Positions 10,656-49,421 of a DNA stretch of 64,000 nucleotides are shown here, piece after piece. Source of the DNA: Bacteroidota bacterium. Lineage in GTDB: Bacteria > Bacteroidota > Bacteroidia > 2-12-FULL-35-15. The notes under the pieces were generated by a model. That model did no database searches. It saw only the letters and a list, made by a program, of their open reading frames with translations, and was not told where the DNA came from. Position 1 is the first letter of the stretch; each line of letters begins with the position of its first letter. The stretch spans positions 248,001 to 312,000 of the forward strand of contig CANNHN010000002.1 in NCBI GenBank assembly GCA_947504725.1, given 5' to 3'. A program made the translations under genes and the position numbers.

Positions 10656-13600
10656 TTGAAAAAATTTTTTAAAAACAAATACTCTCTTTTTCTGCTTGCC
10701 TTTCTTTTTTTGGCAACTGGAGCCTTTCTATATTATACGTTTTCGGGTGGCGCAGCCCCAACTATAAAGGGGTTTGAAAGCGTTTTACATAAAAAAGAAC
10801 TGCGCCTCAATCAAGAAATGTTAGCGCTTGCAAAGCGTGCAGAATCTGAAAACTATACTGATCTTTTTGCCAAAAGTCCTGCTTATTATGGGGATTTAAT
10901 GAAAAACGAAGGTGTTGCGTTACTTATTTATGAAAACGACACATTAAAGTTTTGGAGCGACAACTCGATTGCAGTTGAAAATTGGGTGAAAGAAGTTTGT
11001 TTAGATCAAAAAATGGCGAAGCTACACAATGGTTGGTTTGAAGTTGTTCGCCCTAACACCAACGCAACGACAACAAGAGCTATCGTTGGACTGGTTTTAG
11101 TAAAGAATGAATATCCCTATCAAAACAAATATTTGGTAAATGAATTTCAAAAAGACTTTGCTGTTCCTTCTGAGACAAAATTAATTACCGACAATCCGAA
11201 CGCCACAAATGATGTTAGAAATTATAATGGAGAGTATCTCTTTTCTCTAGAATTTAACTCCGCTAACAATTCCGTTTCGAGCGCAACTTACGTTTCAATT
11301 CTTTTAACCTTAATTGGTTTTGTTTTTTTAATTCTATTCTTAAAAGTGCTTTGCAGTGATTTGTTATCAAAACAAGGGAAAAATTATTCAACTATCGTAT
11401 TCCTAATTTTGATTGTTGTGATACGTTATTTTTCAATAACACTTTCTCTTCCTGAAAGCTTTTATTCGTTTGACTTGTTCAGCCCAACAATCTTCGCAAA
11501 CGCAAATTCTATTTGGCTTACATCGCTTGGCGACTTACTGCTAAATGTAATTTTGTTGTTTTATATGACTTACACATTTTTTAATGACTGCGAATTCGAT
11601 GCGCTTGTAAGCAGATTACAAAAAATCAATAAGCTTATTTTGTCATTTATGTTTTTCCTTGGTTTCTTTTGGTTTTCATGGCTAATTAACGGATTATTTA
11701 CTGGTTTAATTAAAAACTCAAACATTCCTTTTGGCATAAACAATCTTTTCACTCTTAATCAATATAGTTACGTTGGCATCATTACAATTGGTCTTTTGCT
11801 TTTCATATATTTCCTTTTTGCCGATAAGCTTGTTTCGGTTTTAAAGCAGCTGAAGCTTAACAACAAGCAATACTTTCTTGTTTTTATTGTTTCGTCTGCC
11901 GTCCATACGCTTATCTCTCATTTGCTAGGCACACTGGATTTAATAGTGATTTTCTGGCCGTTCTTGTTGGTGCTTTCTATCGCTTTAATAAAACGAAAGC
12001 AAACTTTTTACCCTTTTTCGAGTATTATCTTTTTGGTTTTTCTTTTCTCATTATACTCTGTTCACATTTTTATAAAACATTCTGGTTTAAAAGAAGTAGA
12101 GAGTAGAAAAGTTTATGCGGAAAAATTAGCTGCCGAACAAGATCCTGTGGCGGAACTTTTGTTTAAAGATGTAGAGAAAAAACTACAAGTAGATACGGTA
12201 TTGTTATCACTAGTAAGTGGTCTCGAAAAGGAACCCGAAGCTTTTGAGAAAAGAATTAAACAGCAATATTTTAGTGGCTTTTGGGAAAAATACGATGTGC
12301 ATGTTGCTCTATTCGACAGCGCTTGCGCGCCAATCATTCGTTCACAAAATCCATTGTTCGATAATAATTTTTATTTTGATGAGCTTATCGAAAAACGTGG
12401 ACAAGAAACTTCTTGTGAGGGTTTTCACTTTATCAACAACTCTTCTGGTAAAATAAGTTATTTAGCAAAGCTTCCGTTGTATAAGAAAAGTCCCGCATCC
12501 TCAAAATTTGGAACTATTTATATTGAATTAGATGCAAAGTTTGTTTCTGATGAAGTTGGATTTCCAGAGCTTTTGCTAGATAGAAACATTGGTTTGTCTC
12601 AAGAGTTGAGTAATTACTCATATGCAAAATACAAACACAATCAACTATTAAATCATTATGGAAAGTATACATATCGTTTAACCGCATTTGATTTTAAAAT
12701 GTCTGCAGAAGATTTTGTTTATCAGAAGAAAGACGGGTATAATCATTTGCTATATCGCCCAAACCCCGAAACGCTTGTAGTGCTTAGCAAGCGCAACGAT
12801 GGGTTGGTTGGGAAGGTGACTACGTTTTCTTATTTGTTTGCATTTTTTAGTTTGCTTTTGTTGTCGATTTTGTTCTTACGACAAGTTTCATTGGGTCGTG
12901 TTTTAGAAAATTTTAGTTTTAAATATCGCATTCAAGTTCTTCTCGTTTTTATTGTTCTTACATCACTTGCGTTATTTGGTGGCGGCACTATATATTATAT
13001 CAAACAACAGTTTGAATTCAAAAACAAGGAAAATATTAGCGAAAAAATTCATTCTGTATTAATTGATGTAGAAAGTAAATTGTCAACAGAAGCTGTTTTA
13101 AACAAAGGATTAACAGAGTACGTAGCTTTTATTCTAAAAAAATCTTCTTCTGTTTTCTTTACCGACATCAACTTGTATGATGTGGAGGGAAACTTGTATG
13201 CATCATCAAGGTCGAAGGTTTTTGACGAAGGATTAACATCTAAAAAAATGAATCCGGAAGCCTTTTTACAAATAGCCCTTTTGGGAAAATCAGAATTTAT
13301 ACATGATGAAAGAATAGGAAAATTAGAATATTTGTCAGCATACATTCCATTTAAAAACAAAGAAGGAAAACTTCTTGCCTACCTAAACCTTCCTTATTTT
13401 GCGAAGCAAAGTGAATTAGAAAAAGAGATTTCGGGATTCTTAGTTGCATTAATAAATATTTATGTTTTACTTTTTGCGCTCTCAATTGTCTCTGCTATTT
13501 TTATTTCTAATTATGTTACGAAACCGTTGAAATTAATTCAAGACAAGCTGAGTAAAATCAAACTTGGCACCACCAATGAGCCAATAGAATGGAAAGAAAA

Positions 13601-38927: not shown

Positions 38928-39328
38928 TTTTTAAATTTCGTGATTTTGGGTAAAAATGTCCTCAAAAACAGGCAAAAACGGCTGTAATCGCCACCCAGAA
39001 AGACCTACAGAAAAGCTCGTTTTTGGGCGATTTGGGCGCACTTTACCCCTCCTGACAACAAAAGTACACTAGCGAAGGGGCTTAGGCGGTTTTAGGCCCC
39101 AATTTGAGGTTTTGTTTGCATTTTTTATAGATTTGGGGGTCAATTTTGATCTCGGTTCAGAATTCTCGACTTTTTGCCGCTTCTGACTCCACCCGAAATG
39201 ACAAATCAAAAAAACACCTAGAAGAAAAAACCAAATCTAAAATTGTGGTTTAAAGTACCCCATTTCTTAATTCTGGATTTTGATATTCGTTTCGTTTTTC
39301 CGTCTTTTCTGTCCTCTATAAATTTTTC

Positions 39329-39514: not shown

Positions 39515-39542
39515 CTGTCATCCTAATCGAAGTCGAAGGATT
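39515..39542. repeat. Dispersed repeat at the end of the methyltransferase gene
   Basis: CTGTCATCCTAATCGAAGTC and the following bases belong to the GTCAT...CGAAG class of intergenic repeats seen elsewhere in the window, and the unit reaches the stop codon at 39541. Confidence 0.45.
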
Positions 39543-40425
39543 ATTTCTTGCTGATTAGATAAATCTGACTAGAATAAGTCTTACCAGATTTGATCGCAGA
39601 GAGGTTAGATAGGAGTCCGTTCCACGTGGAACGTAGGATGTTTGTTTTGCCCGTTTTTATCTTCTCGCTGAGCATAGAAACATAGAACGAATCAAATACC
39701 ATTGGGAGAACTTTAAACACTTTTAAATCGTGTTTCTGGAACAATGAATCAACATCTTTTGGGGTAAAGTGGTAAAGGTGACGAGGAACATCGTACGCGG
39801 CCCACTGTTCTTTATAAATCTTTGCGTCTAGCGAGTTGCAGTTTGGAACAGCGATAATGATGATTCCGTTGGGCTTAATTAATCGTTTTAACTCCTCTAC
39901 TCTTTCGTTTAATTTGGGTACATGTTCGAGAACATGCCACATGGAAATAATATCAAAACTGGCATCAGAAAGGTTCTTTAATTCGCCTTCATCTCTCACG
40001 TCCAAACCATAATTTTTGATCGCCATTTGACGAGCATCTGAATCGGGTTCAATTCCAATTGTGTTCCATTTTGCACTTTTGCAGGTGTTCAAAAACTCAC
40101 CTGTTCCACATCCAATATCCAAAATATTTCCTGTTTTAAAGTACTTCGAAATGAGCTGAAGTTTCTTCAATAAAGTATATTTTCTGACAGACTGATAGGT
40201 TGAATTAATGAATCCTTTTTTGGTGTTTGAATGAGAAACGTAGTCCTCCGATTTATAATATTTGCCCAAATCTTTTTCTTCGGGACGAGGATTTGTGAAC
40301 TTAAATCCACATGATTCGCACTCAACAATTTGGAACGTTTCACGTGAAACAGTATGATCAACACAAGCCAAAAAAGGCTTGTTTCGAATCGAATTACATA
40401 CAGGGCATTGTTCTAATTTCTCCAT
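39541..40425 (-). CDS. Class I SAM-dependent methyltransferase with N-terminal zinc ribbon
   Basis: The protein has 294 residues from the ATG at 40425. The frame is open to a GTG at 40467, but those extra residues would be encoded by a dispersed repeat and a parS site. The N terminus has two CxxC pairs (CPVC at 7-10, and CESCGFKF near 40), a zinc ribbon. The methyltransferase core follows: ILDIGCGTGEFL (SAM loop), GIEPDSDA, and ISMWHVLEHVPKL. Many family members act on sugars or quinones; the substrate here is unknown. Two parS palindromes lie within the coding sequence, reading VSRET (40337-40350) and STWN (39619-39632). It sits beside mnmG in the origin region. Confidence 0.88.
   Translation of the reverse strand: MEKLEQCPVCNSIRNKPFLACVDHTVSRETFQIVECESCGFKFTNPRPEEKDLGKYYKSEDYVSHSNTKKGFINSTYQSVRKYTLLKKLQLISKYFKTGNILDIGCGTGEFLNTCKSAKWNTIGIEPDSDARQMAIKNYGLDVRDEGELKNLSDASFDIISMWHVLEHVPKLNERVEELKRLIKPNGIIIIAVPNCNSLDAKIYKEQWAAYDVPRHLYHFTPKDVDSLFQKHDLKVFKVLPMVFDSFYVSMLSEKIKTGKTNILRSTWNGLLSNLSAIKSGKTYSSQIYLISKK
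39619..39632. promoter_or_regulatory. parS site 2, inside the methyltransferase gene
   Basis: GTTCCACGTGGAAC is a perfect 14-bp palindrome matching the parS consensus. On the coding strand it reads through R-S-T-W-N near the C terminus of the methyltransferase. Confidence 0.85.
40337..40350. promoter_or_regulatory. parS site 3, inside the methyltransferase gene
   Basis: GTTTCACGTGAAAC is identical to the core of the classic parS sequence. It reads V-S-R-E-T in the methyltransferase N-terminal region. Confidence 0.88.
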
Positions 40426-40450
40426 TTCTCGGCTCCGCTCGAAATGACAA
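40425..40450. repeat. Dispersed GC-rich repeat, copy A
   Basis: TTTCTCGGCTCCGCTCGAAA followed by TGACAA. It abuts the methyltransferase start codon and lies 11 bp from parS site 4. Near-identical copies occur at 42803, 44818, 49743 and, more loosely, 49872. Confidence 0.75.
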
Positions 40451-40460
40451 GCGAAGGTCT

Positions 40461-40474
40461 GTTCCACGTGGAAC
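40461..40474. promoter_or_regulatory. parS site 4, upstream of the methyltransferase gene
   Basis: GTTCCACGTGGAAC is a perfect parS palindrome between the methyltransferase start and the end of the small unknown gene at 40479. Confidence 0.86.
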
Positions 40475-40478
40475 CTAC

Positions 40479-40850
40479 TTAGTTATTCTTGATATAATTT
40501 AAAATAAACGTGTGGTGTTCGCCATAATAAACGTCCTTATCCATCTTGGCATTTATATAATAAATCTGCTCACCTATTGTTTGTTTCGGTCCACAATTCT
40601 TTCTCAAAGATTCAAAAACTGTTGTACATATTTGCTCCCCATTCTTCCTTAAAAAGAGAGTGGGGCGGTTGCCTCTTTGCCACCAAAAATCAAAATCAAT
40701 TGTTCCGTTTGAGTATACCATGTGGTTCTCAGAGCCCTCAAAAGTTGACTCCAATTTAAAGCCTTCTTTAATAAAAAGATCGCTCAAATAATATCTAACG
40801 TCTCTTGCGTTTGCGTTTGTTATCCAAAAAAGGTTGCTTAATATTCCCAT
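40479..40850 (-). CDS. Small cytosolic protein of unknown function in the parS zone
   Basis: The protein has 123 residues with no signal peptide or membrane segment. It is a mixed alpha/beta protein with many aromatic residues: VRYYLSDLFIKEGFKLES, IDFDFWWQRGNRPTLFLRK and DVYYGEHHTFILNYIKNN. No known motif was recognised. It lies tightly between parS sites 4 and 5, downstream of mnmG (14 bp from its stop) and upstream of the methyltransferase, all leftward. Base composition resembles its neighbours, so recent transfer is not suggested. Function is unknown. Confidence 0.65.
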   Translation of the reverse strand: MGILSNLFWITNANARDVRYYLSDLFIKEGFKLESTFEGSENHMVYSNGTIDFDFWWQRGNRPTLFLRKNGEQICTTVFESLRKNCGPKQTIGEQIYYINAKMDKDVYYGEHHTFILNYIKNN

Positions 40851-40851
40851 T

Positions 40852-40865
40852 GTTTCACGTGAAAC
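40852..40865. promoter_or_regulatory. parS site 5, between mnmG and the small unknown gene
   Basis: GTTTCACGTGAAAC is a perfect parS core. Its last base is the first base of the mnmG stop codon complement, so the site sits exactly in the 14-bp gap between the two genes. Confidence 0.88.
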
Positions 40866-42769
40866 TATCTACCTAAATAAACCATTAAAATGGAAATATC
40901 TGATGGAGTAATTCCTGATATTCTTGATGCTTGTCCAATTGTTCTTGGACGAACTTTTGTTAATTTTTCACGAGCCTCTTTCGATAAAGATGTTAGTCGG
41001 ATGTAATCAAAATCATCATGCAAAACTAAATCTTCTAATCGAGTTTGCTTGTCGGCTAACTCGTGTTCTTTAGAAATATATCCTTCGTACTTCATTAAAA
41101 TTTCTGCCTGCTCAATGCTCTCCATATCAAATTGAGAAATGAATTCTTTCACCTTTTCAGATGCAATGGCAAAGTCCAAAAGTGTAATTGTTGGACGAGT
41201 TAAAACGCCAAACATTTTTACTTTTTGAGAAGTAGGAGCGGAGCCAATTGTTTCCAAAACTGGATTAATATCACTTGGATCAATGCTTTCTTTTTTGAAA
41301 TAAGAGATAATGTCGTTCGTGTTTTTTTGTTTGATTTGAACACGATCCATGCGTTCCTTTTTAGCCAACCCCAATTCAAATGATTTAGGAGTTAGACGTA
41401 TATCTGCATTGTCCTGACGCAACAAAATTCTATACTCTGCACGAGAAGTAAACATGCGATAAGGTTCATCTGTGCCCTTCGTTACCAAATCGTCTATTAA
41501 AACGCCTATATATGCCTCAGAACGTTGAAGAATAAATGGCTCTCTGCTATTAATTTTTAAATGCGCATTGATTCCTGCCATCAAACCTTGGCAAGCTGCT
41601 TCTTCATATCCTGTCGTTCCGTTAATCTGTCCAGCGAAATACAAGTTGTTTACAAGCTTTGTTTCAAGCGTTAAATTCAATTGCTGAGGAGGAAAATAAT
41701 CGTACTCAATTGCATAACCTGGACGGAACATTTTAACGTTCTCAAATCCTGGGATTAATTTTAAAGCTTTGTATTGAACATCTTCGGGCAGGGAAGTAGA
41801 GAAACCGTTTACATAGATTTCAACAGTATTCCATCCTTCTGGTTCAACAAATATTTGATGCCTATCACGTTCTGCAAAACGGGTAATTTTATCTTCTATG
41901 CTTGGACAATATCTTGGACCAAGTCCTTGAATTCTTCCAGAAAACATCGGTGATTTTTCAAAACCAGTTCTTAAAATTTTGTGAACAGCTTCGTTTGTAT
42001 AGGTTGTAAAACAAGGGATTTGGCCTTCTGGACCGTTTTTAAAAGCATCTTTTCTTTCTACTTTAAAACCGAATTGATCCACATCTAAATAAGAAAACTT
42101 ATTTGGGTTTTCGTCACCGTGTTGAACCTCCATTTTAGAATAATCTAAGGAACGACCATCCACTCGGGGAGGCGTCCCTGTCTTCATTCTACCTGCTTCA
42201 AAACCTAATTTTACTAATTGTTCTGTAATTCCTGTGGATGACTTTTCACCCGCTCTTCCGCCACCATATTGCTTTTCTCCTAAGTGAATCAATCCATTTA
42301 AAAAGGTACCATTGGTTAAAACCACTGATTTTCCTCGTATTTCAATGTCCATTCCGGTGATTACACCTTTTACAACATTGTCTTCAACGATTAAAGATTT
42401 TACCATATCCTGCCAGAAATCCAAGTTGGGCGTGGCTTCCAGCATTAATCTCCATTCTTCAGCAAATTTCCATCGATCACTTTGTGCTCTAGGACTCCAC
42501 ATGGCTGGGCCTTTTGAGCGATTTAACATTCTAAATTGAACAGCAGTTTTGTCTGTTACAATTCCTGAATATCCTCCCAAAGCATCTATTTCACGTACAA
42601 TCTGACCTTTTGCAATTCCACCCATAGCAGGATTACAGCTCATTTGAGCTATTGTCTGCATATTCATGGTTATCAACAATGTTGAAGAACCCATGTTTGC
42701 AGCAGCAGCAGCAGCTTCACAACCTGCGTGACCAGCACCAACAACTATAACATCGTATTCTTTAAACAT
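40865..42769 (-). CDS. mnmG: tRNA uridine-5-carboxymethylaminomethyl modification enzyme MnmG (GidA)
   Basis: The protein has 634 residues, full length. The N-terminal FAD loop is [12 protein letters not shown] (about 9-20). Other family marks are [35 protein letters not shown], the catalytic-cysteine region [10 protein letters not shown] (near 275), and the C-terminal helical domain that binds MnmE, with [15 protein letters not shown] at the end. With MnmE it installs 5-carboxymethylaminomethyl on the wobble uridine of several tRNAs. In many bacteria the gene lies next to the replication origin, as the neighbouring parS and DnaA-box clusters suggest here. Confidence 0.97.
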
Positions 42770-42881: not shown

Positions 42882-43868
42882 TTATAATCCAAATTGTTTA
42901 GAAAGATCAAGCATTCTAATAATTGGTTTCTTTGCTTTTTCAATTAAATCAGCGGACAATATAATTTCTGGTTGTTCGTGTTTAAGGCAATTATAAAGCT
43001 TTTCAAGCGTGTTTAATTTCATGTGAGGACAATTATTACAAGCACAAGAATTATTCGGTGGAGCTGGTATAAACGTCTTATCCGGATTCTTTTTTTGCAT
43101 CTGATGAATAATGCCTGATTCAGTCGCAACAATAAATTCTTTTGCTGAAGATTTAGATGCGTAATTTAATATACCTGTTGTACTACCAATATAATCTGCT
43201 ATTTCGAGAAGATTGGCTTCACACTCAGGATGTGCTAACAAAATTGCTCCAGGATGTTTATTTTTTAATTTTACTATTTTCTCTAATGAAAAAATTTCGT
43301 GAACCATACATGCTCCATCCCAAAGCAACATATTTCTTCCTGTTTTTTTATTTATGTATGCACCTAAATTTTTATCTGGAGCAAATATTATTTTTTGATC
43401 TTTTGGAAGACTTTCAACAATTTGAACGGCATTTGTTGAAGTACAAACTATATCAGTTAACGTTTTTAAATCAGCTGAACAATTGATGTAAGAAATAACT
43501 AAATAATCAGGATGAAGTTTTTTGAATTCCGCAAATTTATCTGCTGGGCAAGAATCTGCTAATGAACATCCCGCTCTTAAATCTGGTAATAAAACTTTTT
43601 TGTTAGGCGAAAGAATTTTTGCAGTTTCGGCCATAAAATGAACTCCAGCAAACACAATGATGTCGGCACTTGTTTTTGCAGCTTCCTGTGATAAACCCAG
43701 GCTATCTCCGATGTAATCGGCAATGTCTTGAATGTCAGCATCCTGGTAGTAGTGGGCGAGTATGATTGCATTTTTTTCTTTTTTGAGCTTGTTTATTTCA
43801 GCAAACAAATCTAGAGAAAAATCAATCGGAATATCAAGAAAGCCTTTTGTTTTTAAATCATCACCCAT
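42882..43868 (-). CDS. nadA: Quinolinate synthase A (4Fe-4S enzyme)
   Basis: The protein has 328 residues. NadA marks are [38 protein letters not shown] and the three Cys ligands of the 4Fe-4S cluster: [31 protein letters not shown] and [14 protein letters not shown]. It condenses iminoaspartate with dihydroxyacetone phosphate to quinolinate, the second step of NAD synthesis. nadB and nadC are not in the window. It is the first leftward gene next to the proposed origin gap, with mnmG 112 bp downstream. Confidence 0.96.
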
Positions 43869-44373
43869 AATAACAATATTCTTTTTTATTTTAAATATTT
43901 AAAAATTTGTTGTTGTTGTTGGTCTGTTAGTTGAGTGTAAAAAAAAACAACAAAAGCATTGCAATAATGAGTTCTAACATTCAACCAACAACAATTAAAA
44001 AGTTCTTAGCGTGTAACGTGTTGAACACTAGATTTGTTTAGGTTTATCAACAGACTGTTAGTATACTTTTCATCTAATAACTTCTCTGCAAAATTACATT
44101 AATTTATGTTACCAAATTGTTGATTAATGGTGTTAAATTCTAAAAAGAAAATGCTTGTGAATCCAAAAATTAATACAAGGAATATCTTGTTTTAACAAAG
44201 CAAGAAAAATGTTCTACACATTTACAACAAAACCTTTTGTTATCAACAGAAACCGTGTTGATAAAATAAAAACCAGACGCCTAGTTATCAGCACTTTATT
44301 TTTCAACTTTACAACCGTGTTCACAAGCCTAAAAAGCTGTTAATAACGTTGTAAAAACACTAAAATAATCAAA
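43869..44373. other. Candidate replication origin (oriC) region
   Basis: A 505-bp gene-free, AT-rich gap between the divergent nadA and rpiB genes. It holds several DnaA-box-like nonamers: TTATCAACA at 44044-44052 and 44240-44248, TGTTGATAA (its inverse) at 44256-44264, TTATCAGCA at 44285-44293, TGTTAATAA at 44338-44346 and TGTTGATTA at 44118-44126. Short A/T tracts (for example 43876-43913) could be the unwinding element. The parS cluster lies 3.0-4.5 kb away, and gene direction switches from leftward to rightward here. DnaA itself is not in the window. Confidence 0.65.
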
Positions 44374-44808
44374 ATGAAGATAGCGATTGGTTGCGATCAC
44401 GCAGCATTTTCTTTAAAAGAAAAACTAAAACCCTACTTAGTATCAAAAGGTTATGAGATAAAAGATTTTGGATGCTATTCAGAAGAGCGTGCCGACTATC
44501 CAGATTTTGCTCATCCGGTTGCAAATGCTGTAGAAAGCAAAGAGTTTGATTTAGGTCTATTAATGTGTGGAAGCGGAAACGGAATAAACATGACCGCCAA
44601 TAAACACAAAGGAATTCGCTCAGCATTGTGCTGGAACGCAGAAATAGCAGAGCTTGCGCGACAACACAACGATGCAAACATTTTAACTTTACCAGCAAGA
44701 TATATGAGCGAAGAAGAAGCAAAAAAATGTATTGATGTGTTTTATACTACAGCATTTGAAGGTGGTAGACATAGCGATAGAGTAAAGAAGATTAGCGAAG
44801 GCTGCTAG
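44374..44808 (+). CDS. rpiB: Ribose 5-phosphate isomerase B
   Basis: The protein has 144 residues, standard for RpiB. Visible marks are IGCDHAAF (Asp8, His9) at the N terminus, YPDFAHPVANAV, the catalytic Cys65 in LMCGSGNGI, and the C-terminal GRHSDRVKKI. It interconverts ribose 5-phosphate and ribulose 5-phosphate in the cytoplasm as part of the pentose phosphate pathway. It is the first rightward gene beside the proposed origin gap. A dispersed repeat follows its stop, so it is probably transcribed alone. Confidence 0.96.
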   Translation: MKIAIGCDHAAFSLKEKLKPYLVSKGYEIKDFGCYSEERADYPDFAHPVANAVESKEFDLGLLMCGSGNGINMTANKHKGIRSALCWNAEIAELARQHNDANILTLPARYMSEEEAKKCIDVFYTTAFEGGRHSDRVKKISEGC

Positions 44809-46534: not shown

Positions 46535-47917
46535 ATGTCGCACGCAGAAGAATTATTTTTAGAAGCAGCAGAAATAAAATCGTTCGACCTAGAACACCGC
46601 AAAACCATATTGCACAACATTTCGCAGTATGATAAAAAAGTGGTGGAAGGGAAAGAACAGTTTTCGAATTTAGAATTGGCGAAGACGAGAGCAGCTGCAT
46701 TAAAACAAAAATCAATTGAGAATCTTGATAAATATTTAATTGAATTTGAGGCGAATTTTATCAAACGTGGAGGAAAAGTAATTTGGGCGCAGGATGCTGA
46801 AGAGGCCGTGAAAGAAGCGCTTCAAATTATGAAGAAAGCGAAAACGAAAACAGTAGTGAAAGCAAAATCCATGGCAACCGAAGAAATTAATTTCAATGAA
46901 GCGCTGGAAGAACAAGGAATAGAAAGCATTGAAACAGATTTAGGCGAATACATTGTACAGCTCCGTAAAGAGCCACCGTACCATATTGTAACGCCTGCCA
47001 TGCATCTTTCAAAAGAAGAAGTGGCGAAAACATTTCACGAGAAAAAACAAACACCGCTAGAATTTACTCCTGAACAAATTACCAATTTTGTACGCGAAGA
47101 ATTGCGCCTCAGATACAGCAAAGCAGAAGTAGGGGTGAGTGGAGCAAACTTTTTAATTGCCGATGTTGGGGGAATAGCAATTACCGAAAACGAAGGTAAT
47201 GGCTTGATGTCAGCAGCTTTCCCCAAAATTCAAATTGCGATTGTTGGGATAGAAAAAATAATTCCTTCGATTGTAGATGTTGATTTATTTTGGCCACTAC
47301 TTTCTACATACGGAACGGGACAAGGAATTACAGCATACAACACCATTTACACAGGACCAAAACAACAAGGCGAAAATGATGGTCCAGACGAAATGTATGT
47401 GATTCTTTTAGACAATGGAAGAACAAGCGTTTTAGCTGAAACAGAACAACGCAGAGCGCTTTCTTGCATTAAATGTGGTGCTTGTTTAAATGCGTGTCCA
47501 GTTTACCAAACCGTTGGCGGACACACATACGGAACAACTTATAGCGGACCAATTGGTTCCATCATAACGCCCCATTTTAAAGGCGTGGAAGAGTTTAAAC
47601 ATTTGAGTTTTGCTTCTACTATGTGTGGAAAATGTACAGAAGTTTGTCCCGTTAAAATTGATATTCACAAGCTTTTATTGATCAACAGAAAACAATCTGT
47701 TGATATGAAACTGTCTACTAAAACAGAAAATTGGGTATGGCATTTTTGGAAACGCGCCATGCTGAAACGCAGCAAAATGGACAAAGGCGGAGCGAAGTTA
47801 AAAAACTTCATGATCAAGCAGTTCTTCAAAAAAGAATGGGGCGAACGCAGAGACTTACCACAAATGGTGAATAAATCGTTCAATCAAATCTGGCGAGAGC
47901 GGAAGGGGATAAAGTAA
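46535..47917 (+). CDS. lutB: LutB-type iron-sulfur lactate utilisation protein
   Basis: The protein has 460 residues. The N-terminal LUD domain spans about 60-300 (GVSGANFLIADVGGIAITENEGN, FPKIQIAIVGIEKIIPS). A dicluster ferredoxin domain follows, with Cys ligands in CIKCGACLNACPVYQTVGGH and MCGKCTEVCPVKIDIHKLL. LutB belongs to the LutABC L-lactate dehydrogenase complex and probably transfers electrons between clusters. lutA and lutC are not adjacent, which is frequent in this phylum, so the substrate is inferred from the family. It is cytoplasmic or membrane-peripheral. Confidence 0.9.
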   Translation: MSHAEELFLEAAEIKSFDLEHRKTILHNISQYDKKVVEGKEQFSNLELAKTRAAALKQKSIENLDKYLIEFEANFIKRGGKVIWAQDAEEAVKEALQIMKKAKTKTVVKAKSMATEEINFNEALEEQGIESIETDLGEYIVQLRKEPPYHIVTPAMHLSKEEVAKTFHEKKQTPLEFTPEQITNFVREELRLRYSKAEVGVSGANFLIADVGGIAITENEGNGLMSAAFPKIQIAIVGIEKIIPSIVDVDLFWPLLSTYGTGQGITAYNTIYTGPKQQGENDGPDEMYVILLDNGRTSVLAETEQRRALSCIKCGACLNACPVYQTVGGHTYGTTYSGPIGSIITPHFKGVEEFKHLSFASTMCGKCTEVCPVKIDIHKLLLINRKQSVDMKLSTKTENWVWHFWKRAMLKRSKMDKGGAKLKNFMIKQFFKKEWGERRDLPQMVNKSFNQIWRERKGIK

Positions 47918-47975: not shown

Positions 47976-49421
47976 TCATTCTATATCACCGCGCAAACGC
48001 CTTCCTCTCGGCTCATCACCTTCATGCAACACAAATTCAGAATGCAGAAACATTGCAGCTGCTTCTGAATCTTTTACTTTGGATGAAGAGCGCTCTAACA
48101 TTTCTGATTCAAACTCCGTTAATATAGATTCTCTTATTCCTTTTTCTCTCCAATTAGACAAAGGTCTGCAGTTTTTTGATATTGCACGTGCCAGCGCCAA
48201 AGCATCTAATAGCGCTTGGTTTGCACCTTGTCCTTTGAATGGACTCATGGGATGAGCCGCATCTCCAATCAACGTAGCCGCTCGAGCATTTTTCATCCAT
48301 TCGGGTTTTAATAATTCTCGGTCATACACAGGATAGCCAGAAATTTGAGCTTCTTTGGTTGCGGATAAAATCTCAGGAATAGGGCTATGCCATTGCGTTC
48401 TCTTACATGCTTCTTCTTTAAGTGCATGCGTTCCTTTAGCGCTTAATTCTTTGGCTTCTTCTTCTGACATCGGGAAACTCAGTTGCCACATTACAGTATC
48501 AGATGAATAAGGCATGATGTAAATCCGTTCATTGCCATTGGCGGTTTGAAATACTGTTGCAGAGTCCAGCAAAGGGTTTTCAAGGCCATTGAGAGCAGCA
48601 AAAGGACAAATTCCCAAAATCACAATACAACCCAAGTAACGCAAAGGAGCAATTTCCTCGCTAATTAACAAGCTTCGCAACGAACTACGAATACCATCAG
48701 CTCCAACCACAAGATCCGCTTTAGCGCTCTTCATTTTCCCATTCACCAGAAATTTCAACTCACCATCCATCTTAAAATCAATTAATTGGTGTCCCCAAGA
48801 AACCTTGTTGTGTCCACCAAGTTGCTCAAGAAGAGCTGAACGCAAAGCCTGTCGTGCGATGTGGACATTTGTTTTTTTTGGAATTTTATTAGAACTAGTA
48901 GACATCCATTTTCTCATTCCCCATTCCCCAATTACTTTTCCGTCTGTAGTATGCACCAAATGCCTTGTTGAGACAACACCTTCTTTTAATGAAAAAAGCC
49001 CTAATCCATGAATCGCTTTGCTGGCTTGTTGTAACGTAAGTCCATAACCTTGAGAGCGAGCTTCGAAATTGTTATCGCGCTCATAAAGAGTAAACGGAAT
49101 TCCGCGGTGCAAACAAGCCACAGCCAGCGCTACGCCTCCTATTCCAGCACCAACAATAGCAATATGTGGGAAGTTTTCTTTATCAGGAATGGGAAATTTA
49201 GTAGAGGGAAGCAGCCCAGAACCCTTACAGGTCAAGCAGGAATACAAATGTCCCTTAGGGCGAACAGGAGCAACACCATCGCCTTTCGTTTTTTCAAATT
49301 GATCGAGTGCTAGTAGGTGGCGGAGTCGAACACTCTTTCGGAGCTTCTTACTTTTTTTTCCTCGTCCTTGACAATCATTGCAAATAGCCCAGTAAACCTC
49401 TTTGTTTTCTACCTTTTTCAA
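47976..49421 (-). CDS. FAD-dependent monooxygenase with N-terminal zinc-finger-like CxxCxGxG motifs
   Basis: The protein has 481 residues with a TTG start. The first 80 residues carry two DnaJ-type motifs, CNDCQGRG (Cys14, Cys17) and CLTCKGSG, spaced like half of a DnaJ zinc site. The rest is a class A flavin monooxygenase: IVGAGIGGVALA (FAD loop), GADGIRSSLRS, and GDAAHPMSPFKGQGANQAL (second FAD motif). It resembles salicylate hydroxylase-type enzymes that use NAD(P)H and oxygen to hydroxylate aromatic compounds. It is the only leftward gene in this stretch and is flanked by unrelated genes, so acquisition by transfer is plausible. Substrate unknown. Confidence 0.85.
   Translation of the reverse strand: MKKVENKEVYWAICNDCQGRGKKSKKLRKSVRLRHLLALDQFEKTKGDGVAPVRPKGHLYSCLTCKGSGLLPSTKFPIPDKENFPHIAIVGAGIGGVALAVACLHRGIPFTLYERDNNFEARSQGYGLTLQQASKAIHGLGLFSLKEGVVSTRHLVHTTDGKVIGEWGMRKWMSTSSNKIPKKTNVHIARQALRSALLEQLGGHNKVSWGHQLIDFKMDGELKFLVNGKMKSAKADLVVGADGIRSSLRSLLISEEIAPLRYLGCIVILGICPFAALNGLENPLLDSATVFQTANGNERIYIMPYSSDTVMWQLSFPMSEEEAKELSAKGTHALKEEACKRTQWHSPIPEILSATKEAQISGYPVYDRELLKPEWMKNARAATLIGDAAHPMSPFKGQGANQALLDALALARAISKNCRPLSNWREKGIRESILTEFESEMLERSSSKVKDSEAAAMFLHSEFVLHEGDEPRGRRLRGDIE

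Follow-up and report, generated by a model that had tools for sequence, protein, structure and literature searches.

A conserved DnaA-box array between nadA and rpiB marks the probable chromosomal replication origin of an uncultured Bacteroidota genus

The window analysed here, a 64,000-nucleotide stretch of a Bacteroidota genome (3.40 Mb in 43 contigs, 99.6% complete), contains a 505-bp intergenic gap that is gene-free and AT-rich (GC 0.27) and is flanked by the divergent genes nadA, encoding quinolinate synthase, and rpiB (Table 1). In this respect a sequence-only reading of the same DNA was accurate, as it was in describing mnmG (gidA) as adjoining nadA. That reading also had the genes to the left of the gap running leftward and those to its right running rightward; the leftward run does extend to 43868, but the rightward one consists of only three genes, ending at 47917, with leftward orientation resuming at 47976-49421. 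The gap is located at about 292120 on contig C2, while dnaA (C1:344959) and parB (C1:416642) are on a different contig.

Table 1. Features in and around the nadA–rpiB gap (window coordinates).
Feature	Position	Strand	Basis or remark
Candidate oriC	43869..44373	.	ORF map and alignment of 19 species
nadA (quinolinate synthase), left neighbour	42882..43868	-	PF02445
rpiB, right neighbour	44374..44808	+	PF02502
mnmG/gidA	40865..42769	-	PF01134
parS core GTTTCACGTGAAAC	40852..40865	.	motif search
parS core GTTCCACGTGGAAC	40461..40474	.	motif search
parS core GTTTCACGTGAAAC, within methyltransferase gene	40337..40350	.	motif search
parS core GTTCCACGTGGAAC, within methyltransferase gene	39619..39632	.	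motif search
Candidate duplex-unwinding stretch, least stable 60 bp of gap	43869..43928	.	nearest-neighbour energy
Top-conserved non-box block TTGTTGTTGTTGTTGGTCTGTTAGT	43907..43931	.	92-99% identity to window, across genus alignment
DnaA box 1, TTATCAACA	44044..44052	+	gap position 176; kept in genus
DnaA box 2, TAATCAACA, weaker	44118..44126	-	gap position 250
DnaA box 3, TTATCAACA	44240..44248	+	gap position 372
DnaA box 4, TTATCAACA	44256..44264	-	gap position 388; forms an inverted pair with box 3
DnaA box 5, TTATCAGCA, weaker	44285..44293	+	gap position 417; 3' end less conserved
DnaA box 6, TTGTGAACA here (degenerate), TTATTAACA in most relatives	44318..44326	-	gap position 450
DnaA box 7, TTATTAACA	44338..44346	-	gap position 470

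Boxes 1, 3 and 4 are exact copies of the nonamer TTATCAACA, and boxes 2, 5 and 7 deviate from it by one mismatch; together they are the six DnaA-box-like nonamers that the sequence-only reading had placed within about 300 bp (44044-44346). The seventh site, box 6, is visible by cross-species comparison only. That the boxes arose by chance in AT-rich DNA was ruled out by shuffled sequences and permuted motifs. Dinucleotide shuffles of the gap contained a mean of 0.55 boxes at ≤1 mismatch, with none of 2000 reaching either three exact or six total sites, and among 1260 permutations of the motif these numbers were attained by TTATCAACA alone; those control motifs that scored high either resemble the box closely or match it in a shifted register. 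Across the 440 kb of C2 that were scanned, the gap was the sole place with three exact boxes inside 350 bp, and no other such trio occurred among 100 listed of the 108 exact boxes in the genome. Over the whole genome the nonamer shows no enrichment (108 copies versus 107 for a reversed control), and it is thus the clustering that constitutes the signal. The canonical TTATCCACA box has zero copies in the gap, and a search with it would therefore overlook the candidate origin.

Searching 36 congeneric genomes matched nadA in 29, and 19 nadA–rpiB gaps, that of the window included, were aligned. The first ~480 bp counted from nadA are almost indel-free over the 19 species, the rpiB-proximal end being variable in length, and all seven boxes stay at the gap positions listed in Table 1 across these congeners. 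Mean conservation was 0.857 for the boxes compared with 0.713 for random 9-bp sets (P 0.00045), box 4 being the most conserved, with the spelling TTAT[C/T]AACA in 19 of 19 species. In four relatives, identity across the gap (82-89%) exceeded that at third codon positions of nadA (56-77%). The genes dnaA and nadA are on separate contigs in each congener for which both were located and listed.

The core parS motif (GTTYCACGTGRAAC) occurs exactly four times in the 3.40-Mb genome, each time beside mnmG within window positions 39619-40865, and a weaker fifth parS-like site is present at 39328. The four core sites are 3.2-4.4 kb to the left of the gap, in agreement with the 3-4.5 kb previously given for the cluster. 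Two of the sites are within a methyltransferase gene (39541-40467) and their 718-bp spacing is kept in many relatives, which indicates that coding sequence and parS are jointly constrained. A 123-amino-acid ORF between two parS sites (40479-40850) has no Pfam match and has a counterpart at a single locus among the relatives (L133/L002, 71% identity).

GC skew was computed per contig, the chromosome not being closed. Third-codon-position skew, which gene orientation affects less than total skew, has its minimum on C2 at C2:297014, 5 kb from the gap, and its bins are nearly all negative to the left of the gap and mostly positive to the right, constituting a switch of sign. Total GC skew of C2 is noisy, with a broad minimum at 260-350 kb and an absolute minimum at C2:260082 (window position 12082), 32 kb from the gap; the gene-orientation minimum is at C2:258540 and that of intergenic-only skew at C2:344519. 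In this draft genome the skew minimum anticipated at the gap by the sequence-only reading was therefore recovered with third-position skew but not with total skew. In one relative (G017) the total and third-position minima (981078 and 981070) are both 0.65 kb from the gap (~980.4 kb). A second relative (G014) displays a local sign change at the gap but has its contig-wide minimum elsewhere, which is either counter-evidence or a sign of rearrangement. On C1 of the window's own genome (G000), third-position skew turns from positive to negative at about C1:275000, a terminus-like pattern ~70 kb from dnaA and ~140 kb from parB. Both genes may belong to the terminus half; C1 was covered in part and misassembly is possible.

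A box cluster beyond chance and unique in the DNA scanned, a third-position skew minimum, nearby parS sites and a position and architecture conserved throughout the genus, all read directly from sequence, are features by which an oriC is recognized. They support the earlier proposal that the gap is the chromosomal replication origin, a reading that we hold with high confidence. In the mechanism that we infer, DnaA encoded on C1 would bind some seven boxes, each of 9 bp and of the form TTATNAACA, the core of the array being the close inverted pair 44240/44256 with the outer boxes at fixed distances. Oligomerization of DnaA would open AT-rich DNA of the gap, leading to helicase loading, and forks would depart from the gap in both directions. 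ParB, by binding to the parS sites on the left, would then allow the new origins to be segregated.

It might be argued that the boxes constitute a regulatory or titration site for DnaA, either datA- or DARS-like or controlling transcription of nadA and rpiB, and that the origin is elsewhere. DnaA does bind regulatory sites away from origins, the gap must house both divergent promoters, and the conserved block at 43907-43931 may be a control element of nadA. The skew switch and parS, however, coincide with the cluster, whereas datA and DARS sites are away from origin signals, and the cluster has no comparable counterpart in the scanned part of C2 or among the exact boxes listed genome-wide; we consider this explanation improbable. 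An origin a few tens of kb away, for example near window position 12000 or in the parS cluster, with the gap being only origin-proximal, would agree with the minima of total skew and gene orientation. Near window 12 kb, however, there is one exact box (12430) and no cluster, the conserved array is found at the gap only, and the skew at third positions, which is free of the influence of gene orientation, indicates 297 kb, making a displaced origin very improbable.

What speaks for an origin beside dnaA is solely the textbook arrangement, which is found in many model bacteria. Either flank of dnaA (C1:305-385 kb) has strongly negative third-position skew, with no change of sign between them; there is thus no origin signature at dnaA, and an origin at this gene was rejected on skew. 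Furthermore, no parS is near dnaA and, among 100 listed of the 108 exact boxes, none is within 30 kb of the gene, leaving this location a next to negligible probability.

Apart from the boxes, the block TTGTTGTTGTTGTTGGTCTGTTAGT lies 38-62 bp upstream of nadA, is present in a single copy in ~840 kb of genome at ≤1 mismatch, and may be a nadA leader or promoter or, alternatively, an element of the origin. Near-copies of this block (≤3 mismatches) occur ~150 bp or less upstream of nadA at several distant loci (L005, L012, L013, L016, L018, L021, L033, L037, L059 and L066). Within the gap, duplex stability is lowest in a 60-bp stretch (energy -64.5 against a contig mean of -75.6, beyond 99.3% of contig windows) that was at an equal place in six of six species checked and overlaps the nadA promoter region; this stretch is a candidate for duplex unwinding and could equally be the nadA promoter. 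The published criterion for a DnaA-trio element next to a box (BUS) is three NAN motifs within 16 bp (PMC8287927), which is loose. A scan of the gap detected A/T-rich runs only, at places that are not conserved, and no convincing array. Scanning for sigma-70 promoters revealed no excess, and a riboswitch or other structured RNA ahead of nadA was rejected, as Rfam yielded no match at gathering level and sub-threshold noise with E values of 1.6 or worse.

Predicted oriC regions away from dnaA are common in the Bacteroidetes (DoriC; Prevotella intermedia OMA14, PMC4755523). A dnaA-distant origin is therefore expected in this phylum and unsurprising, which corrects the suggestion in the sequence-only reading that such a location would be informative. 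Similar to the oriC of P. intermedia OMA14 (PMC4755523), the gap combines a skew switch with a box cluster spanning a few hundred bp, dnaA being distant in both, but it belongs to another genus, is flanked by nadA and rpiB, has parS adjacent, and keeps its box positions fixed genus-wide. In Algorimicrobium (Flavobacteriaceae), Ori-Finder and GC skew assigned oriC to mnmG (PMC12843772); the present candidate is likewise mnmG-linked, although its array is past nadA, ~1.3 kb from the start of mnmG. Origins of this kind, dnaA-distant and mnmG-linked, are thus already published for the phylum and are not new (PMC4755523, PMC12843772). What is informative is the comparative anatomy, together with an altered pair of box and initiator. 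For an uncultured genus of Bacteroidota, having a well-supported origin that has been dissected by comparison also aids origin annotation and growth-rate estimates based on coverage.

In E. coli and B. subtilis the boxes of oriC are TTATNCACA and, as in the gap, these 9-bp elements are clustered in both orientations in AT-rich surroundings. In contrast to those species, position 6 of the four core boxes in the 19 congeners is A and not C (75 of 76 instances); position 5 is free (C, T, A or G), giving the consensus TTATNAACA, and the genus gaps contain 68 copies of TTATNAACA versus one of TTATNCACA. The gap may also depart from these models in its DnaA-trio, no clear array of which was found in it. 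The initiator differs as well. Residues were numbered against what we take to be the E. coli DnaA domain IV sequence, and the numbering agrees with published residues. Helix 5 in every congener read is GGKDHATVLHA, that is, GGKDHATV and not GGRDHTTV, corresponding to R432K and T435A relative to E. coli (K432/A435); nearly all DnaA proteins read from the genus additionally carry P423A, one having S423. Elsewhere helix 5 contains RDHTT (Chitinophaga) or RDHST (Pedobacter and Sphingobacterium). Base-specific contacts are made by DnaA positions 399, 423, 432-435 and 438-439 (PMC5043019), the helix reads TnCACA, and T435M abolishes box binding (PMC5742627).

When residue 435 was compared with box type, the four T435 genomes read were C-type (TTATNCACA), S435 was mixed and A435 was mostly A-type; the D-H-A435-T-V version was present at dnaA in 8 of 32 genomes of the sample. 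Outside the genus, A435 loci with clusters comprised three A-type, one C-type and two ties, against a remainder of ~9 A-type and ~18 C-type loci, an association that is weak and phylogenetically confounded, the lineages not being independent. For this reason the co-change of initiator and box is put forward as a hypothesis. Judged from these sequences, it is conceivable, though somewhat doubtful, that both changed together in the lineage, K432/A435 (with A423) accompanying TTATNAACA, such that a C at position 6 is unneeded or even disfavoured. As part of the same tentative proposal, T435, S435 and A435 might represent a graded natural series of co-change within one phylum. The altered box and DnaA helix provide a testable case of initiator/origin co-change.

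Across the phylum, 58 nadA loci of ≥6 kb were compared (Saprospiraceae and cyanobacteria left out), and at 38 of them the top DnaA-box cluster was upstream of nadA at a distance of ≤900 bp, permuted motifs averaging 5.4-5.9. At this wider set of nadA loci, mnmG and parS are as a rule found within 3-8 kb. The region upstream of nadA is therefore an origin-like place that recurs in several Bacteroidota families, Chitinophaga and Pedobacter being among the genera concerned. In the Saprospiraceae, the top cluster was upstream of nadA at 1 of 13 loci. Nearly all Sphingobacteriaceae loci (L012-L043; Pedobacter, Mucilaginibacter and Sphingobacterium) have parS ≤~150 bp from mnmG and ~5-6 kb from nadA; the link between mnmG and parS is phylum-wide. 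A Chitinophaga chromosome available in complete form has nadA at 5617389; within the surrounding 400 kb, total skew is lowest at 5614431, ~3 kb from the gene. In 20 sampled stretches of this chromosome the skew passes from positive to negative somewhere from 2.2 to 2.5 Mb, near the point opposite 5.617 Mb (~2.47 Mb); the third-position minimum in the densely covered stretch is not at nadA. Two Chitinophaga loci (L039:10422 and L064:16465) display a second strong box cluster, 2.4 and 8.4 kb, respectively, from the nadA start, which may have a regulatory role or form part of a bipartite origin.
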